DNA of 64,000 nucleotides, taken from assembly GCA_036346225.1 (NCBI GenBank), contig JARFIW010000588.1, positions 3,291,501 to 3,355,500 of the forward strand, read 5' to 3'. A program made the translations under genes and the position numbers. How positions within the stretch are numbered: the first letter of the stretch is position 1; the number at the start of each line of letters is the position of its first letter. A model generated the notes under the pieces. That model was not told the origin of the DNA. It did not search any database and saw only the letters and a list, made by a program, of their open reading frames with translations. This document shows, piece by piece, positions 7,411 through 62,109 of this stretch. The stretch comes from Platerodrilus igneus (Eukaryota; Arthropoda; Insecta; Coleoptera; Lycidae).

Positions 7411-8321
7411 TCATGACATGGAATACTGCCATATCACGTGGAGGATATTAGGTATTGGGCATAAATGGCTTTGTCTTTCGTTTTTTTACCACTACCTTCT
7501 GTTACAATTTAAAAGTTCATAATACCCACTCCGCAAGCGCAGTATACTAGACACCACGGCAGTTGGTAGCACTAATCTTTATACAGATTTTGGCGCGTCC
7601 ATCTGTCAATGACGTCACCAATATACAAATTAAATGCGCAATTGACCGAAAATACATATTAAATTCGCAAACAATTATGACAATAAGGTACTCACATAAA
7701 CAGGTTCAGATTTCCACGAAGTACGCCACATCAAAATTAAGCTAAGGATGGTTTAGTGCCAATTTGGCACGTAAAACTTCTTAGTGTTGAAAATTCTTTA
7801 ATAAGATCATACCCCTTGCCCATTTTTTTACCAGTACCTTCTTAGTGTTAAAAATTCTTTACTAAGATCATACCCCTTGCCCCTTCCCGCAAAAGAAGCG
7901 GCGCCCTAAATAAATATTCAAAATTGTTTCCCTTTTAGGAAAGAAACGTTGTCGTAAAGTCCACGTTTAATGCTAACAGTTTTCAGGGTAGTTATGCCTT
8001 TTCTCTAATTACAATTACTTCACTCTCATCCAAATTGTTGCGGCATATAAATCATATGCCAGGTTCTATGACGGACATTACTTGAAAAAAAACGCACGGC
8101 ACTGAGCTCGACCGTTCCTTACAAAGGCCATCGACGAAGTCCGAGTTCTTTTCAAAGCATTAAACTACCGTCATATGAGTGACATTACGATAACGCAGTC
8201 GCGTTCATAGGACTGTCTTATTTTACAATTGTTTGTAGTTTCTAATGAATACGAAACAATCGTATTTTTGAAACTTTGTAGTTTGAAAACTATAGCTCGT
8301 AGAGCAAAAACTCATATATAT
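7411..8321. other. Unassigned; short tandem duplication at 7777-7885
   Basis: No coding signal. A segment with TTCTTAGTGTTGAAAATTCT and GATCATACCCCTTGCCC is present twice, about 63 bp apart. Confidence 0.5.
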
Positions 8322-11949: not shown

Positions 11950-13108
11950 TTACTGCGTGGGGAGTGAACACAGCTTTGCTACTGGACGGGTATAAACCCC
12001 ATCTTTTGTACGTACTGTGACAACCCTAATAATGCCGTCTTTTCCGGGGTGAGTCTGTTCAATTACACCTGTTGGCCACTGCAAAGGCGGGCAATTATCG
12101 CGCATCACTATCACGACTAAACCTGGCTCAACAGGACAGGAAGGTGTATTCCACTTCTGTCGGGATTGTAGTTCACACAAGTATTCCCTAGACCATCGCT
12201 TCCAATTGGATTGAACAATTTGATTTAAAAGTTGCTTGTGATTTACAAGCGCAAGCGCCTTTCCGGTTTCATCGGCAGCGGGCAAGAACTGCAACGGGGT
12301 GAGAGTTAAAAAATGAGCAGGCGATAATGCGAGAGGTTCCGAAGGGTCTGAACTAAGCCAGCATACCGGACGTGAATTTAACAACGCTTCGATTTGTGTT
12401 AAAACCGTTGAAAATTCTTCATAAGAAAGTATTTGCTCTCCCACAACTTTCATTAAATGACCTTTCACGCTTTTAATATTCGCCTCACATATTCCTCCAA
12501 AATGAGGAGCCGAAGGCGGATTGAATTTCCAATCAATGCGCCTTTGACTAAGTTCATGGCCAATGGCATTTAGGCAATTTGAATTTCGGAAAAATTCTTG
12601 AAGGGAATCTAAATAATTTTTAGTGCCCACGAAATTTGTCTCGCGATCGGAATACATAACCGCACATGGTCCCCTTCTAGCAAGGAAACGCTTAAATGCC
12701 GCAAGGAATATGTCGGTTGACAAACTTGACGCTAATTCTAGATGCACGGCACGAGTTGTTAAACAAACAAATATGCATATATAGGCCTTTTGAGCTTTAA
12801 CTCCCCGGTGTCTACTAAGAGTTATATTAAAAGATCCGGCAAAATCAGTGCCAGTATGCATAAATGCTTTGGCCTGATTAACCCTAGGAGACGGTAAGTC
12901 AGCCATAAGAGGAAAAGAAGGTCGAGGTTTTCTTCTGAAACAATGATTACAATTTTGAACACGAGTCCGAACCAAATTTCTAGCCGCTATAATCCAAAAA
13001 TGCTGACGTAATAGAGAAAGCAGAAGATGTGGCCCTGTGTGTAAATTTTTTACATGAAAATGATCAATTAATAAATCGGTAAAACGATCTTTCTTAGGTA
13101 AAAAAAAG
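11950..13108 (-). pseudogene. BEL/Pao integrase and C-terminal domain
   Basis: The integrase part of pol, which inserts the cDNA into the chromosome. The true reading enters near 13108 at LPKKDRFTDLLIDHFHVKN; upstream codons of this frame are out of phase. It has the zinc-binding H..H and C..C (VQNCNHC), the first catalytic Asp (HTGTDFAGSFNI), the second (YSDRETNFVGTKN) and the Glu (PHFGGICEANIKSVKG). The C-terminal domain follows, with WKRWSREYLCELQ and VVTVRTKDGVYTRPVAKL. All three catalytic acids are present, although the usual SDNGTNF is SDRETNF and GGLWEA is GGICEA. An eight-T run at the frame junction suggests a slippage indel. Confidence 0.9.
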
Positions 13109-13708
13109 AACTGGATGCTGCTGATCATATGAAATATTTGCATTTGACAGACGACCGCCAACTCTAATTAAGTTATTTGAAAGAAAAGGATTCAAATGTC
13201 GAAAGGGTTTCGAACAAAGTTGTTCCTTTTCCAGAAAAGTCTTTTCGGAGAAAAAATGTTTATCTTGCACTGCTAAAATTAGAATATTTTCTGCCGCAAC
13301 AAGATCTTCCGCAGAAATGCGGTTCCTTTTAGGCAAACGTTTAACAAATCTCAAAACATAAACAGTTATGCTTAACAATTTAGAGTAAGAACTGCATCTA
13401 TCAATCAGGGCGTATAAGGGATGAACTTCTGATTGTGTCACAGGAAGTGAAACCAATTTCTGTTCAAGTTTATTGTCAGCCAAAATAATTTCTTCCGTGT
13501 CAATGATTTTAATAGGCCAATCGCTTTCTTGAGAAAGAAGCCACGATGGCCCCTGCAACCACAACTCGGCGTTAAGAAATTGATTTGGAGATATACCGCG
13601 AGACGCACAATCGGCAGGATTTGAAATGCCATCAACATGAAACCAGCGAGTTACTGGTAATAAATTTTGAATTTTTGCCACTCGATTGGCTACAAAGTTT
13701 TCCAACAA
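13109..13708 (-). pseudogene. BEL/Pao RNase H to integrase linker
   Basis: A separate frame carries VANRVAKIQNLLPVTRWFHV, NPADCASRGISPNQFL and LRFVKRLPKRNRISAEDLVA. It ends at IRVGGRLSNANISYDQQHPV, the standard BEL/Pao stretch between RNase H and the integrase zinc region. It is continuous in sequence with the frames on both sides but offset by one base at each end (near 13695 and 13105). It was one polyprotein before two indels. Confidence 0.9.
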
Positions 13709-16700
13709 TGGGGCGATTTATGAATCCAGTTAAGAACCACCATGGAATCAGAAAACGCAAAAACTTGTTTGATAGTGCATCGTGAGGAATATGTGCGAAT
13801 GATGCAATTTAATAGTCTTGCAAGCAATAAAGCAGCACATAACTCCAAACGAGGAATAGTGACAGTTTTTATTGGAGCCAATTTAGCTTTACCGCATAGT
13901 AAAATAATTTTGACTTCGCCATCCAGAGACACTGTTCGGGCGTATACGACGGCACTGTATGCCTTTTCAGAAGCATCGCAAAATCCCACAAGTTGTAATG
14001 ACGTTACTGATGAATATCCGATGTTTCGGGATATTTTAAAGTCGGAAAGTTGAATTATTTTTTGCTGAAAGGTATTCCACAAACCTTTAATATATGGAGG
14101 GGTTTCTTCATCCCAAGACAACTTTAATATCCATAATTCTTTGATTAGTAGTTTGGCAAATATTGTCACGGGAGATAAGAGCCCTAATGGATCCCACATT
14201 CTAGCTACAGTGAAAAGAATATTTCTCTTTGTACAGATTTCATTTGGACCTTTAACCGCAAATGTTAAATTATCAACCTCTGGATGCCATTGAAGACCCA
14301 ATACCTTTAAAATATTGCTTTCGAAATCTACAACATTGTCCATTCGAATATTTTCAGATATTTCGTTTGTTAAATGCGAAGAATTTGTGGCCCATTTAAC
14401 TAACTGAAAACCTCCGGCCGTGAAAAGCCCGAGCAGTTCATGATAAAGGACTTTGGCATTATCTAAAGATTTCACCGAAGAAATCACGTCATCTACATAC
14501 ATATCTCTTTGTACAACTGCGGATGCAAGCGGAAATTTTTTTGCTTCATCTAATGCTAGCTGAAGTACAGTACGTAGAGCTAAATATGGAGATGATTTGA
14601 CACCAAAAGTAACTCTTGTGAGTTGATACGTTTGTAATGGTTCATCTATGCTGAATCGCCAAAGCAAACGTTGATAAGATTGATGTTCGGAACATATTTT
14701 TATTTGGCGAAACATCTGACGAACGTCAGAAATTAAGGCAAATTCCATTAATCGAAAATTAATTAATATGCAAAATAAATCGGTTTGCAATTTTGGACCG
14801 GCATAAAGGCAGTCATTTAAAGATTTATTAAATGCATCTTTAGACGATGCATCAAAAACGATGCGTAAAGGGGTAGAAACCGATTCTTCCTCAAACACCC
14901 CGTGATGAGGAATAAAATATCCTTTGAAATGAGGAGTACAATTTGGAATAAGGTTTATATGACCTTGCTCAATATAATCTTTCATCGCCGCACTATAGGC
15001 TACTCTGTATGACGGCGATAAAGAAAATCTTTTTTCTAGAGAATAAAATCTGCGCAAAGCTGTAGAAAATGAATTTCCTAAGTTTGGCGGATATTCTGTA
15101 AAAGGTAAAGCAACAATGTATCGACCAGTATCATTTCGTTTTGTTGAAGTAGAGAACAATTCTTCATATTTAATATCATCGGAACTACGAGTAACGACTT
15201 CACCTACTTCTTCAAGCTCCCAAAATTTCTGAAGCAAAGGTTCTATGACCTCGGACCCTTCAACACAACAATAAACCTGTAAATTGGTCGTGACATTTTG
15301 AATTGGAGTTTGACCCATAATTATAAATCCTAAAGTGGAATTTATGGCAACGGGTAAATCGGGACTTGAATATTTGAATGATTCCAAAATATGTGGTACA
15401 AGTTCAGCGCCTATAATTCCGTGAATTTCTCCAGGACGAAAGAAAGTTTCATCGGCTAAACGTAGATTGCTGAAATGTTTACAAACTGCTGGGTCGACAG
15501 CACAAGATGGCAAACGATCCGTGATTTTGTCTAACACGAACGCTTGCATTTTGTATTTAACATCTGCATCATGTTGAGATGTAAATGCTATTTGCGTTTG
15601 ACCGCGAACAGGTTTGAAAGACGCACCGATCCCTGAAATAGACGTGTAAGTTTTATTTACAAGTAATCGAAGCAATTGACAGCATTTAGATGTAATGAAG
15701 TTACATTGACTAGCACTATCAATTAGGAATCTCAACCGCAGGTGAGTACCCATTGTTGATTCAACTTTAACGATCGCAGTCGGTAACAGAATCGTGTAAT
15801 TTTTATCTGAACTTTCCTTAGTCGACGTTGAACAAAGACTCACATTAATTGCTTTATTTGTATTTATAGGATTAGATAACGCTTGATTATTCGTGTCAAC
15901 AATCGGACTAGGAATGTGTAACACTGAATGATGACGGTTACTGCACAACCTACATGAATACGTGGAAGGGTATAACGACAAAGCGTGCTTAGAACTGAGA
16001 CAGTTAATACACAATCTTTGATCTTTAACAAAAGAAATTCGATTTTGCGGAGAAAGATTAAGAAATTTGTAACACCTAGCTAATCGATGACGTTCGCCTT
16101 TACAATAAGCACATTTCAAATTGTCGTGATTATTTACTTCTTTTGTGGCGAAGGCATGTAAGACCTTCGTCTTGTTTGTGTGGCCATTACTTTGCTTTGT
16201 TTTGCTACTGCTGGTTCGATCTAAAATTTTAACTTGTTCTTTTACGAACGTGGCTAGCTCATCGTAAGTAGAAATCGAACCTCCCTTTAAAGATTGTTCA
16301 AAAATTCGTCGTGTATGATTGTCTAGCTTTGATAAAGCAATAGAAGTAAGAATAAAATCAGACAAGTTTGTAATGTTTAATTTACGAAGAGCATTGATTG
16401 CAGAGTCGACCTTTTCTATGAATGAATTTAGACTGATAATACCTTCCGTTTGAAGCGCTTTAAAGTCGAAAACCTGAGAAAGATAAGTGTTAGCTAAAGC
16501 GCGTTTATCTTCATATTTTTCAATTAAAGCGGTCCATAGTATAGAGTAATTTTCAGCCGTCGGTAACATACCAGAGCTTAATGCCAGAGCGCTACCCCGT
16601 AATTTTCCTAATAAATAATGCATTTTGCAAGTATTGTCCAAATTAGAATTATTATGGATAAGGCTTTTAAATGTTTCGTAGAAAAGAGGCCATTTTAGAA

Positions 16701-16745
16701 AATCGCCGTTAAAATCAATTAGATCAATTTTGGGAGACGAACAGT
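13690..16745 (-). pseudogene. BEL/Pao gag-protease-RT-RNase H
   Basis: Main polyprotein of the element, open from about 16745 (first in-frame Met at 16641, giving 983 residues). Numbered from that Met: gag to ~170; Cys/His knuckles at 177-190 (CAYCKGERHRLARC) and 211-243; aspartic protease with LIDSAS (Asp308); RT from ~500 with IVFDASS (594), LISDVRQMF (636) and the catalytic YVDD at 715-718; RNase H with FCDAS (Asp889), RLELC (Glu933) and FSDS (Asp965). Every catalytic residue I looked for is intact. The frame is lost after SPHCWKT by a one-base indel. Confidence 0.95.
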
Positions 16746-17096
16746 AGCTTCAGCTGCCTGCATAGTTTGATTTTGAGAAGATTGATCGGTAACTTTCGAA
16801 GTGATTAGACCGGTAGCAACATCCTGAATGTAACAATAAAGTTCATCGATAGCGTTTAATTCATTGTAGTTCGGTTTAAATTCTGGATCCGTTTCAAACC
16901 CTATCGTATTGATTTCATCTATGATTTCATCTAATTTACGTTTTGTGTCATCTAAAGTTGCGTGTCTTATCTTAAATTCCTTTAAAATTACCGAATCTTG
17001 AATGTTTTTACTTTTATCGTAAAGAATTTGAATTCTTTGAAAATAGGTTTCCTTTTTAGATTGAAGTGATTTTAATCTATTAACAGCTTTACTCAT
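16719..17096 (-). pseudogene. BEL/Pao gag N-terminus
   Basis: It starts MSKAVNRLKSLQSKKETYFQ and runs 125 residues to VRLPKLI. It is the likely true start of the polyprotein. The Lys/Glu-rich helical N-terminus and the LPK junction fit BEL/Pao gag, where this sequence normally continues into a FxGDxxxWPxF motif. That continuation (DFNGDFLKWPLFYETFKS) is found in the next frame, so a single-base indel lies between about 16722 and 16745. The leader between this Met and the 5' LTR is 323 bp. Confidence 0.9.
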
Positions 17097-17419
17097 TGTA
17101 ATATTAATAATTCGGTGATTAATAACAAATTGCAGATGTATAACAAATATGTAAATTTAGAACGAGAGATTTGTATTGTTTACGCTATTTCAAATGTACT
17201 CACTATTGCAAGGATAGATAAGCGAATTTGAAATAGAAAAGCATATGCGATAACAGAGCGCGAAAGGTCTGTTTAACATACACCTGTTTAAGTTATCTAT
17301 AGTGAACGATTCTTGTAAATGAACTGTGGCATGAACGAGCAAAATAACCCTTATAACCCGGTATTTAGTAGAGTGCTAAATTCCCGCTACTAACAATCCG
17401 TGCCCGAAGGTAACCAAAA

Positions 17420-17996: not shown

Positions 17997-18437
17997 CTAT
18001 AACTCATTCCAATCTTTTGAGTATTTCAAACATTTTTTCCAATTTACATTGTCGAATGCTTTTTCCAGATCTACAAACCCTATATACATGCTTTCCCCTT
18101 TTTCTATTGTTTTCTCCATTATCACTCTCAGAGCTAAAATAGCCTCCCGTGTTCCCCTGTTTCGCCTAAACCCAAATTGGTCGTCTCCTAGTATTTCTTC
18201 AGCTCGTTTTTCCATTCGTCTTTGCACAATTCTATTTAATATTTTTGACACGTGTGCTGTCAAACTTATTGTTCGAAAATTTTCACATCTATCCGCGCCT
18301 TTCTTTTTTGGTATAGTTACTATGATGCTACGTTTGAAATCTTTGGGTATCTCGCCTGTCTCATACATATAGCTTACAAGTTGGAAGAGACGTTCTGTTA
18401 CTGCTTGTCCAGCGGCTTTTAGAGTTTCTGCTTGCAC
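17997..18437 (-). pseudogene. LINE reverse transcriptase N-terminal motifs
   Basis: Continues the LINE in a new frame: GEIPKDFKRSIIVTIPKKKG (RT motif 1), FRTISLTAHVSKILNRIV (motif 2), DDQFGFRRNRGTREAILAL (motif 2a/3) and GFVDLEKAFDNVNW (motif A with its catalytic Asp). It ends where a one-base loss in an A-run moves the frame. Motif B lies just beyond in the next frame. Motif C is on the far side of the BEL/Pao insertion. Confidence 0.9.
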
Positions 18438-19888
18438 CTTATCTGTACCCGGCGCCTTACCATTTTCAGACTCTTTAATGCTAATTCAAACTCGTCTCGA
18501 AGTATAGGATATCCCAAGTCATCATTTTCAATGTCTGATTCCTGTTCTAATGCAGTTAGTTCCTCTCCTGCATATAAATTCCCTATATATTCTTGCCATC
18601 TACTCACTCTCTCTACGTTTTCTATAATGACGTTTCCTTGTGCGTCCCTTATATTGTTGCTATACGGTTTTATATCCCTAAAATTCATTCTAATTAATTT
18701 GTATGCTTCGTCTGTCTTTCCTATTTCCATCTTAGTTTGTACTTCTTTGCACTTTTCATCAATCCATTGCTCTTTAGCTTTCCTGCATTTTCGAATAATT
18801 TCCCATTTTATGGCTTTGTATCTCTGTTTTCCTGTTTCGTCTGATTTATTTTTGTATTTTCGTCTTTCTTCTATTAAATTCACGATATCCCTTGTTATCC
18901 ATGGTTTCTTATTTTCTTTTTGTGTATACCCCAAAATATCTCTGGCCGCCATGTCTAGGCTGGATTTAATGTTATTCCATTCTGTTTCTACTTCCTTAGT
19001 TTCAGATATTTTCCCGATATCATTCAGCAATTTATTTGACTTTTTTTCGAATCTTACTTGAATATCTTTATCTTTTAGTTTCTCTAAGTCCAAGTGCTTT
19101 TTCCCGTTCCTTTTTTTCAGATTTTTAAATTTAAGTGCGGCCTTCATAATTACGATGTTGTGATCAGTATCTATATCTGCTTCTGGGTAGCTTCTACAGT
19201 CTTTTACTGGATTCCTAAACCGTTGTCTAACAAGAATGTAATCTATTTGATATCTTCCTATATCTCCTGGCATCTTCCACGTATATCGTCTTCTAGCATG
19301 ATGTTGAAATAATGTGTTTGTGATGATTAAATTGTTCTTGTCGCAAAATTCTACCAGTCTATTTCCCCTGTCGTTTCTGGTGCCTAAACCAAATAAACCT
19401 ACTACCGCTCCTACCCTACCCTCACCTACCACGGCATTAAAATCCCCCGTAATTATTAAATTTTCATGTCCTTTTACGTATCTTAATATGTCTTCGATAT
19501 CTTTGTAGATGGCTTCTACCTCATCGTCACTGTAGCTAGATGTGGGCATGTATACTTGTATTATTACTGTGTTTACCGGTTTAGATTCTAATCTAACCAT
19601 GAGTACTCTTTCGTTCTTTTGTAAGTAATTTTCCACACAGTGTCCTATCTTTTTCCGCATAACTATCCCCACACCCAAATTTCCTTCCTCTGCTCCTGTA
19701 TGAATTACCCTGAAGTCTCCACTCCAAAAATCCCCCGCCTCTGGCCACCGAACTTCGCTGATCCCTACTATGTCTAGTGATAACCTATTCATTTCGATTT
19801 TTAGGTTCTCTAGCTTACCTACTTGCTTCATACTTCTAACATTCCACGCTCCGACTCGCAGAATGTTCCCGACTCTTATTTTTAACAT
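18419..19888 (-). pseudogene. LINE APE-type endonuclease and start of RT
   Basis: A 489-residue frame starting MLKIRVGNILRVGAWNVRSM. The apurinic-like endonuclease (residues ~10-240) nicks the target DNA. The expected motifs are all present: AWNVRS (Asn), GISEVRW (Glu), ITGDFNAVVGEG (Asp-x-Asn), QIDYILVRQRF and DTDHNIVI (Asp-His). The region to ~485 is the usual linker into RT, ending FELALKSLK. The frame is then lost one base before the NGKAPGTDKVQAE-type motif. Genomic annotations often label such proteins craniofacial development protein 2-like; here it is a transposon domain. Confidence 0.9.
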
Positions 19889-20300
19889 TCCGATCGCATC
19901 CTCCGAAGTAGTCCCCTCCCGGAGATCCGAATGGGGGACTATTTTAACTCAGGAATCTTTTACCCCAGAGAATGCCATCATGTTTGTTACAATTTAAGTA
20001 CGCTGTGTACTTGGGAGATAATGTGGTGGTTTGCCGTTGCCTTCCACATCGCGGTAGTGTGTCTTAGACTGCCATACCGACCCCTATGGTCTCTGCCAAT
20101 CTAAGTACCGAAAGAGCCGCTGTCCTCTTTCTGGGACCTGTCTTAGTCTGGTTCCTCACTAACGACCCTACTACTTTGGTTGGACCTGTAGTTTGTCTCT
20201 TTAGCTCATTAGAACACACAAGCCATATCACCTGTTCTAGTAATTTAGAACTTCGGCAAGGTGCAGGTCCATTCGAAATGGCAAAAATGTTCATAAATTA

Positions 20301-31415: not shown

Positions 31416-31665
31416 AAATCCGAGGTTTTTAGCAACAGTCGGCACGGAGGAGATCCGGCTCAACTGCCTTTTTCCATAGCCAAAAGTTATAATTTAAAAG
31501 AAAAGTAGGTTTAATGAGTCAAATTAATACAATGTAAAAAGAAATTATTGGCAAGTGACTCAATTTCAGCCACGAGGGTATCCTGTCGACGAAGACACAA
31601 ATTGTGAGCTAGGTGATGCTGTACTTCCCATAAGGTCTCTGTATTAAATATTACAACTTTGCTAC

Positions 31666-31710
31666 TCCTGTCCTGATGAGCCCCAACTAGGGTGAAACAC
31701 GTCGACAGGA
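31666..31710 (+). ncRNA. Hammerhead ribozyme copy 1 (variant)
   Basis: Stem I TCCTGTC/GACAGGA, core CTGATGA, stem II GCCC/GGGT (one G-T pair), GAAA, then CACGTC as stem III and cleavage triplet. The core is intact; stem III differs by one base from copies 2-4. Confidence 0.85.
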
Positions 31711-31964
31711 TGCCCTCATGGCTGAAATTGAGTCACTTGCCAATAATTTCTTTTTACATTGTATTAATTTGACTCATTAAACCTACTTTTCTTTTAAATT
31801 AAAACTTTTGGCTATGGAAAAGGCAGTTGAGCCGGATCTCCTCCGTGCCGACAGTTGCTAAAAACTTGCTATGTCAGGTGAAGCGATACGAAGACACAAA
31901 TTGTGAGCTAGGTGATGCTGTACTTCCCATAAGGTCTCTGTATTAAATATTACAACTTTGCTAC

Positions 31965-32009
31965 TCCTGTCCTGATGAGCCCCAACTAGGGCGAAACGCG
32001 TCGACAGGA
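31965..32009 (+). ncRNA. Hammerhead ribozyme copy 2
   Basis: Type I layout. Stem I is TCCTGTC paired with GACAGGA (7 bp). Core CTGATGA. Stem II is GCCC-CAACTA-GGGC (4 bp, six-base loop). Then GAAA, a minimal stem III (CGCG) and a GTC triplet with cleavage predicted between C32002 and G32003. All invariant core bases are present. The very short stem III suggests activity as a dimer, as described for Penelope-element hammerheads. Confidence 0.92.
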
Positions 32010-32264
32010 TGCCCTCATGGCTGAAATTGAGTCACTTGCCAATAATTTCTTTTTACATTGTATTAATTTAACTCATTAAACCTACTTTTCTTTTAAATTA
32101 AAACTTTTGGCTATGGAAAAAGGCAGTTGAGCCGGATCTCCTCCGTGCCGACAGTTGCTAAAAACTTGCTATGTCAGGTGAAGCGATACGAAGACACAAA
32201 TTGTGAGCTAGGTGATGCTGTACTTCCCATAAGGTCTCTGTATTAAATATTACAACTTTGCTAC

Positions 32265-32309
32265 TCCTGTCCTGATGAGCCCCAACTAGGGCGAAACGCG
32301 TCGACAGGA
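32265..32309 (+). ncRNA. Hammerhead ribozyme copy 3
   Basis: Identical by eye to copy 2 across stem I, core, stem II and cleavage site. Predicted cut is after GTC at 32302. Confidence 0.92.
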
Positions 32310-32561
32310 TGCCCTCATGGCTGAAATTGAGTCACTTGCCAATAATTTCTTTTACATTGTATTAATTTAACTCATTAAACCTACTTTTCTTTTAAATTAA
32401 AACTTTTGGCTATGGAAAAGGCAGTTGAGCCGGATCTCCTCCGTGCCGACAGTTGCTAAAACTTGCTATGTCAGGTGAAGCGATACGAAGACACAAATTG
32501 TGAGCTAGGTGATGCTGTACTTCCCATAAGGTCTCTGTATTAAATATTACAACTTTGCTAC

Positions 32562-32606
32562 TCCTGTCCTGATGAGCCCCAACTAGGGCGAAACGCGTCG
32601 ACAGGA
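32562..32606 (+). ncRNA. Hammerhead ribozyme copy 4
   Basis: Same catalytic sequence as copies 2 and 3. The sequence just downstream differs (GATGCTTTCATGG in place of GATGCCCTCATGG). Confidence 0.92.
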
Positions 32607-32861
32607 TGCTTTCATGGCTGAAATTGAGTCACTTGCCAATAATTTCTTTATACATTGTATTAATTTGACTCATTAAACCTACTTTTCTTTTAAATTAAAA
32701 CTTTTGGCTATGGAAAAAGGCAGTTGAGCCGGATCTCCTCCGTGCCGACGGTTGCTAAAAACTTGCTATGTCAGGTGAAGCGATACGAAGACACAAATTG
32801 TAAGCTAGGTGATGCTGTACTTCCCATAAGGTCTCTGTATTAAATATTACAACTTTGCTAC

Positions 32862-32906
32862 TCCTGTCCTAATGAGCCCCAACTAGGGCGAAACGCGTCG
32901 ACAGGA
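32862..32906 (+). ncRNA. Hammerhead ribozyme copy 5, core mutated
   Basis: The core reads CTAATGA in place of CTGATGA, changing invariant G5, which should abolish self-cleavage. The stems are otherwise intact. Confidence 0.88.
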
Positions 32907-32969
32907 TGCTTTCATGGCTGAAATTGAGTCACTTGCCAATAATTTTTTTTTACATTGTATTATATATAT

Positions 32970-61597: not shown

Positions 61598-62109
61598 GCG
61601 ACTATGGACCCAAAGTAAGTTAGTAGGTCCACTGGTCCCAAAGTAAATACGAGTGTGGACCCAAAGTAGGTCAGTAGGATAAAACTGCTCTCAAAGTCAA
61701 TGTGATTATCGATTCAATGTAGGTCAATCCACTAAAAACAACGTGGTTATGGACCTAAATTAGGTCATTCAACTAAAAGAGTATAATACTTTGATCCCAA
61801 AGTCAATGCGATTAAGGACCCAAAGTAGGTCAGTAGGTCAAACTGGTCCCAAGGTCAATGTGGCTATGGACCCAACGTAGGTCAGTAGGTCAAACTTGTC
61901 CCAAAGTCAATGTGGCTATGGACCCAAAGAAGGTCAGTAGGTTAAACTGGTCCTAAAGTCAATGTGACTATCGATTCAATGTAGGTCAATCGACTAAAAA
62001 CAACGTGGTTATAGACCTAAAATAGGTCATTTAACTAAAAGAGTATAATACTTTGATCCCAAAGTCAATGTGACTAAGGACCCAAAGTAGGTCAGTAGAT
62101 CAACTAATC
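61598..62109. repeat. Higher-order minisatellite, ~52 bp base unit
   Basis: Three unit types recur. A is ~52 bp (GGACCCAAAGTAGGTCAGTA...). B is ~41 bp (CGATTCAATGTAGGTCAATC...). C is ~65 bp (GGACCTAAATTAGGTCATTC...). They are ordered A-A-B-C-A-A-A-B-C-A. It ends at the first base of the family A LTR copy. Confidence 0.9.

Follow-up and report, generated by a model that had tools for sequence, protein, structure and literature searches.

Insertion scars suggest that a hammerhead retrozyme is copied by the Penelope-like elements of its host genome

What moves a tandem array of hammerhead ribozymes that encodes no protein able to copy it? The question is raised by a ~300 bp repeat in the window analysed here, a stretch of 64,000 nucleotides, and the answer that I will argue for, at a probability of roughly 0.7, is that the array is an insertion of a non-LTR metazoan retrozyme copied by the Penelope-like elements (PLEs) of the same genome. 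Both this kind of element and its proposed mover are already in the literature: Cervera and de la Pena (2020; PMC7229834) described metazoan non-LTR retrozymes with type I hammerheads and named PLEs "a strong candidate" as their mobiliser, and PMC7761336, in the excerpt used here, also has retrozymes with type I hammerheads and PLEs as the suggested mover. What is added here is the evidence of the scars that these insertions leave.

An initial annotation, made from the letters alone, had claimed a tandem hammerhead array of ~300 bp units, and this was borne out: TRF gives a 300 bp period with 4.6 copies and 98% matches, and type I hammerheads, five in all and each on the plus strand, recur every 297-300 bp between 31667 and 32905. 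The extent that it gave, 31416..32958, holds for an array at this place, while the element itself runs from about 31425 to 32960 and its first 163 bp, which that annotation had missed, are inverted, lying outside the direct array. Numbering the unit from the first base past the predicted cut (u1 = 32003, u300 = 32302, with unit 2 as the reference), the parts are as follows.

About 31425-32960: the whole element
31425..31587, minus strand: inverted partial unit of 163 bp, from u163 down to u1 (BLAST, 97% against the direct units; segmentation)
31589..31703, plus strand: partial unit u186-u300, closing in hammerhead 1
31667..31709, plus strand: hammerhead 1, 28.6 bits, predicted cut after 31703; stem II has a G-U pair at its base, and stem III reads CACG for CGCG
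31704..32002, plus strand: full unit 1, 299 bp
31966..32008, plus strand: hammerhead 2, intact, Rfam match, predicted cut after 32002
32003..32302, plus strand: full unit 2, 300 bp, the reference unit
32266..32308, plus strand: hammerhead 3, intact, Rfam match, predicted cut after 32302
32303..32599, plus strand: full unit 3, 297 bp
32563..32605, plus strand: hammerhead 4, intact, Rfam match, predicted cut after 32599
32600..32899, plus strand: full unit 4, 300 bp
32863..32905, plus strand: hammerhead 5, predicted inactive, core CTAATGA in place of CTGATGA
32900..32960, plus strand: 3' tail, 61 nt past the last cut, the shorter of the two tail lengths in the genome
32961..32969, no strand: (TA)n target remnant, 9 bp

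The inverted arm has its inner end at most 3 nt from the cut site and its outer left end at u163, beside ordinary DNA and with no (TA)n. The idea that it stops exactly at the cut site was given up, as the segmentation runs 3 nt further, assigning the first three bases of 31589..31703 to the inverted arm so that the direct arm begins at u189, and as most other loci end elsewhere. Units 2-4, called identical in the initial annotation, are so in their 43-nt hammerheads and differ at a few sites over the rest of the unit. Some sites are common to neighbours: unit 4 agrees with the tail at u11-12, and units 2 and 3 agree at u68. Local exchange may therefore have acted as well, or else a mixed template. 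The element has a GC content of about 40-41%, its longest stop-to-stop frame is 73 aa in 1538 bp, and no reverse transcriptase (RT) or GIY-YIG domain was found within it (no frame >73 aa). Elsewhere in the window are nested tandem repeats with periods of 262 bp and 52 bp (61602-62103) and, on the minus strand at 11950-17156 and 18419-19948, remnants of an LTR element, BEL/Pao-like as judged by eye on its frames, and of a LINE with a frame that resembles endonuclease proteins and has its best named match in the psyllid Cacopsylla melanoneura (52%); a tRNA search of the window found none.

Searched with the Rfam model Hammerhead_1 (RF00163), as the initial annotation had proposed, copies 2-4 score 35.8 bits against a gathering cut-off of 34, and copies 1 and 5 fall below it at 28.6 and 28.2 bits (E 2.7e-4 and 3.7e-4 in 2.6 kb searched). 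The layout claimed for every unit, namely stem I, the core, a 4 bp stem II, GAAA and the GTC triplet, is there, except that only three of the five ribozymes are intact, copy 1 having weakened stems and copy 5 a changed core. Stem I has 7 bp; loop II is CAACTA in the window and CAAATA in 9/10 other arrays compared, the Rfam consensus being CAAAUA. Rfam's three-pair, loopless stem III is impossible as a single-copy hairpin, which reduces the stem to a single A-U pair capped by the palindrome CGCG, and the cut-site sequence is itself palindromic (GTCGAC). In ViennaRNA predictions a lone copy misfolds (-17.7 kcal/mol) and two strands form a double hammerhead (-41.5) with a common 6-bp ACGCGU stem III; a 380-nt tandem RNA is also predicted to take this form as its most stable structure at 37 C, and at 25 C the best fold is a different one. 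These models make a ribozyme working in pairs more likely than a monomeric one, and I infer from them that a transcript of the array would cut itself at its hammerheads. A circular unit is predicted to fold with no unusual self-pairing (-61.5 against -59.7 +/- 4.6 for 100 mononucleotide shuffles).

The same unit is dispersed through the 2.71 Gb assembly, where the Rfam hammerhead model has at least 60 matches (74 of 337,018 first-look candidates scored) and the unit as query at least 181 (40 of 1292 candidates scored), both of them lower bounds because only part of the candidates was scored. Among the unit matches listed, all 11 loci with both strands are, by eye, arranged minus-then-plus with tails outward. 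The ends were surveyed at 28 loci, comprising the window, 9/10 arrays from the Rfam search and 18/20 loci from the unit search, after C1118 was dropped because its left end is out of view and L066 and L067 because their right ends are. Inverted arms occur at 20/28 loci, a frequency biased upward since 7/18 of the unit-search loci were known to be two-stranded when picked, and at 9/10 in the window and the nine Rfam loci. Two arrays are long, C1118 (L015, L016) with at least 54 hammerhead units and extending beyond the fetched stretch, and C1094 (L017, L018) with at least 19; the remaining surveyed loci are short insertions.

It is the ends of these insertions that carry the argument. On the right, 25/28 adjoin a (TA)n tract of at least 8 bp, the exceptions being L055 (a shorter TA run only), L068 and L069, and outside the 28 the right end of C1118 is also without such a tract; as background, a tract of this length was found 30-150 nt away for 3.2% of 17,384 sampled window positions. 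The last unit base before (TA)n falls at u49-61 in 13 of the 25 direct ends and at u87-97 in ten, with one each at u37 and u191, and 1-5 unaligned bases precede the tract in seven (five bases in L070 and C1052). Left ends lie at (TA)n in 13/28 loci by script and in a fourteenth, C1023; one of these 14 (L053) is a direct arm, and the 13 inverted arms end at u49-56 (3), at u82-96 (8) or elsewhere (2, at u115 and u246). A tail terminus stands beside (TA)n on both sides in ten loci, whereas C1065 has the left one and a right end at u191; the window is excluded from the two-sided loci, as the outer end of its arm is u163, next to ordinary DNA. Direct arms start within u285-u27, near the cut site, in 10/28 loci against 4 expected (p 0.004, for a range picked after looking), a weak hint that cut RNAs may have served as templates. 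A common stable tail hairpin, seen by eye as TGAGTCA/TGACTCA in the unit and GACCT/AGGTC in several PLEs, was rejected, since the tail regions of 6 sequences are not more stably folded than their shuffles (z -0.42 to +1.37). In the window a repeat beginning at (TA)n with sequence like TTGCTGTGATAAGGGGTTGTTTAGGGG occurs at 8314, 20936, 27415, 32961, 43339 and 49117, and several (TA)n tracts lie between CACAGCA and TGCTGTG, which are placed in mirror order. Since other repeats also adjoin (TA)n, the target alone is not diagnostic, and the case rests on the two tail lengths and the outward pairs.

Both features recur in the PLEs of this genome. The GIY-YIG domain (PF01541) has at least 149 matches (150 of 6529 candidates scored), and the best 30, as loci of ~3.2 kb each, were taken as the PLE sample; in L039 and L047 the frames hold RVT_1 with GIY-YIG downstream, and a PLE RT of the genome has its best named match in a beetle, Coccinella septempunctata (47%), which together with the psyllid match of the LINE in the window makes an arthropod host likely. 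A (TA)n tract of at least 14 bp lies downstream of GIY-YIG in 21/30 loci and is absent in 9/30. In a scan with stems I and II, the UGA and A of the core and GAAA as requirements and with core positions 3 and 8 left free, sense-strand hammerheads appear in 17/30 loci, 16 of them followed by (TA)n, at 60-65 nt past the cut in six and 87-119 nt in ten, and one, L044, by none; two opposite-strand hammerheads have (TA)n at 82 and 103 nt. GIY-YIG pairs less than 10 kb apart are minus-then-plus with tails outward in 10/11 cases (10/13 within 20 kb), as against 0/9 for LINE endonuclease pairs within 10 kb (Fisher p 1.2e-4), a comparison in which a single cluster supplies four of the nine and the LINEs exceed the PLE pieces in length. 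Five inverted PLE pairs, chosen because a single locus contained two outward-facing hammerheads, border on (TA)n at each of their outer ends.

L009 4379-5518: inverted pair, arms 99.6% over 488 bp
L017 900-3183: inverted pair
L019 4643-4999: inverted pair
L032 909-3105: inverted pair
L050 836-2420: inverted pair

The pairs in L009 and L019 lie directly beside retrozymes and share a (TA)n tract with them. The initial annotation had advised looking for a Penelope-like RT next to the unit, and this neighbourhood exists at some other loci, along with the common scars, while common sequence does not: BLAST of the unit against the 30 PLE loci (~3.2 kb each) gave no match >18 bp. Rfam on 20 PLE loci and two PLE tails returned no hammerhead family match, the matches being mostly microRNA families on (TA)n-type repeats (L049 had none).

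In the PLE hammerheads themselves, core positions 3 and 8 form Watson-Crick pairs in 20/20 scan hits, many of them copies of one family (G-C 12, C-G 5, U-A 3); counted over 11 of the 12 distinct sequences, the pairs are G-C 6, C-G 2 and U-A 3. A second search model built from those 11 sequences, with columns 3 and 8 unpaired, gives 34 hits at E <0.01, of which 33 have both letters and 33/33 pair; its three non-pairing hits have E 0.04, 0.32 and 0.54. The G-C or U-A cores lie at PLE ends in L022, L024, L028, L030, L032, L037, L038, L039, L040, L042, L043, L046, L049 and L050, with the canonical C-G in other loci. Read from these predicted cores, the 3-8 pairs are a natural covariation inside the catalytic core. 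U3-A8 is known from nature in the excerpt of PMC3088659, and a C3G/G8C double mutant works partly in that of PMC11167929; no report of a natural G3-C8 was found in the portions of the literature examined.

How, then, might such an insertion arise? That the array is a retrozyme depending on another element, as the initial annotation proposed, is well supported, with no frame >73 aa of its own and PLE frames for RT and GIY-YIG in the genome, and the match between its scars and those of PLEs suggests that PLEs move it. A multimeric transcript would be cut once per unit by paired hammerheads into ~300 nt RNAs or circles, and a Penelope-like RT/GIY-YIG protein would cut a (TA)n tract, where, since (TA)n is self-complementary, the two cut strands expose identical 3' ends, either of which can act as primer. 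Each could start copying RNA ~57 or ~90 nt past the ribozyme cut, tandem copies would come from reading through several units of an uncut multimer or a circle, and the two cDNAs, once joined, would give a head-to-head insertion with tails outward, a product found complete in ten loci and partial in others. Priming from two strands at (TA)n fits the extension of both strands by one PLE in vitro, in the excerpts of PMC11167929 used here. It is also rather probable that a single machinery copies retrozymes and PLEs alike, priming on both (TA)n strands, starting at two fixed points after a dimeric hammerhead and joining the products in pairs with tails outward.

Other movers have to be weighed against PLEs. 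LINEs are abundant in the genome (at least 150 endonuclease matches, with 150 of 33,694 candidates scored) and L1 twin priming is known, in the excerpt of PMC2837659, to yield inverted insertions, so a LINE-type RT could be thought to move the retrozyme and leave the inverted arm as ordinary twin priming; this is unlikely, as twin priming should not put both outer ends at the same internal tail positions by (TA)n (11/13 inverted arms), as LINE pairs, longer pieces and partly from one cluster though they are, showed not one tails-outward case in nine, and as the retrozyme 3' ends are internal to the unit and without poly(A). One cDNA folding back or switching strand, in place of two primers, would account for junctions that are often near the cut site (the same 10/28, in a post hoc range), for the palindrome at that site and for the outer end of the window arm at u163, off the tail sites, and it leaves the two-sided tail termini by (TA)n at ten loci unexplained, which makes it very improbable.

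Nor need a retrozyme move as RNA at all, if the unit were an inert satellite, spread and homogenised as DNA by unequal crossing over, with hammerheads as relics. The long arrays (54 hammerheads in C1118, 19 in C1094) and the right end of C1118 away from (TA)n speak for this, the sites common to neighbouring window units suggest local exchange, and units diverge by a mean of 0.5-4.7% within arrays against 5.5% between them (range 0.3-17%, dominated by C1118 and C1094). Against it, precise RT-type ends are common to many separate loci, and the hammerhead is better conserved than the rest of the unit (mean divergence 0.050 against 0.091 over 18 loci, rank 16 of 300 windows), though the units were located with a pattern that fixes nine hammerhead bases and restricts a tenth. 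I consider the satellite improbable and the retrozyme copied by PLEs the better account, one in which cleavage, circles and a PLE protein acting on retrozyme RNA would all have a part.

If a single machinery does copy both, the mobiliser of animal retrozymes is named and the inverted ends of PLEs are explained. The matching scars make the role of PLEs testable, with (TA)n as target, u1-u97 as template and, as products, two tail lengths and the extension of both strands; they also give natural support to the two-strand priming seen for one PLE in vitro (PMC11167929, in excerpt). In the parts of the open-access literature searched, no description was found of the tails of retrozymes, of (TA)n as their target or of pairs with tails outward.

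Set beside the metazoan non-LTR retrozymes of PMC7229834, the likeness is close: each ~300 bp unit has one type I hammerhead, units measure ~150-450 bp (here 297-300 bp), GC is <45% (as here), tandem arrays range from the dimer to many copies, long ORFs are absent, PLEs occur in the same genome, and dispersed copies have ends of the retrotransposition type. The differences are that inverted arms, a pair of tail lengths and (TA)n as target do not appear in the main text of that paper, that circular RNA was demonstrated there whereas the array here is known from DNA, and that the highly self-paired circular fold, which I read as typical and not as defining in that paper, is missing from this unit. 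The axolotl hammerhead HHR_Amex1, with a one-pair stem III and a palindromic tetraloop, cuts far better as a dimer (PMC7229834). The newt and axolotl satellite hammerheads thus share the stem III architecture of the array and its expected action as a dimer, and it is in this architecture that the likeness lies, the host here being arthropod-like.

PLEs with minimal hammerheads were reportedly described by Cervera and de la Pena in 2014 and by Lunse in 2017. The array is unlike them in that it lacks RT, GIY-YIG and any sequence match, and in that its stem I has 7 bp and its loop II is near the Rfam consensus. It is like them in its (TA)n or AT-rich target, its dimer-type hammerhead, two internal places where RT starts, about equally far past the hammerhead, and, in the host genome, pairs with tails outward. 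According to the excerpts of PMC11167929, purified PLE protein cuts both strands and extends them, has a preference for AT-rich DNA and initiates reverse transcription internally, and its insertion in vitro is independent of hammerhead activity. Copying of the anole PLE begins 111-118 nt into the ORF with the hammerhead cut at +26, which by my own arithmetic from those excerpts places the start 85-92 nt past the cut, with an optional tail of 30-40 bp.
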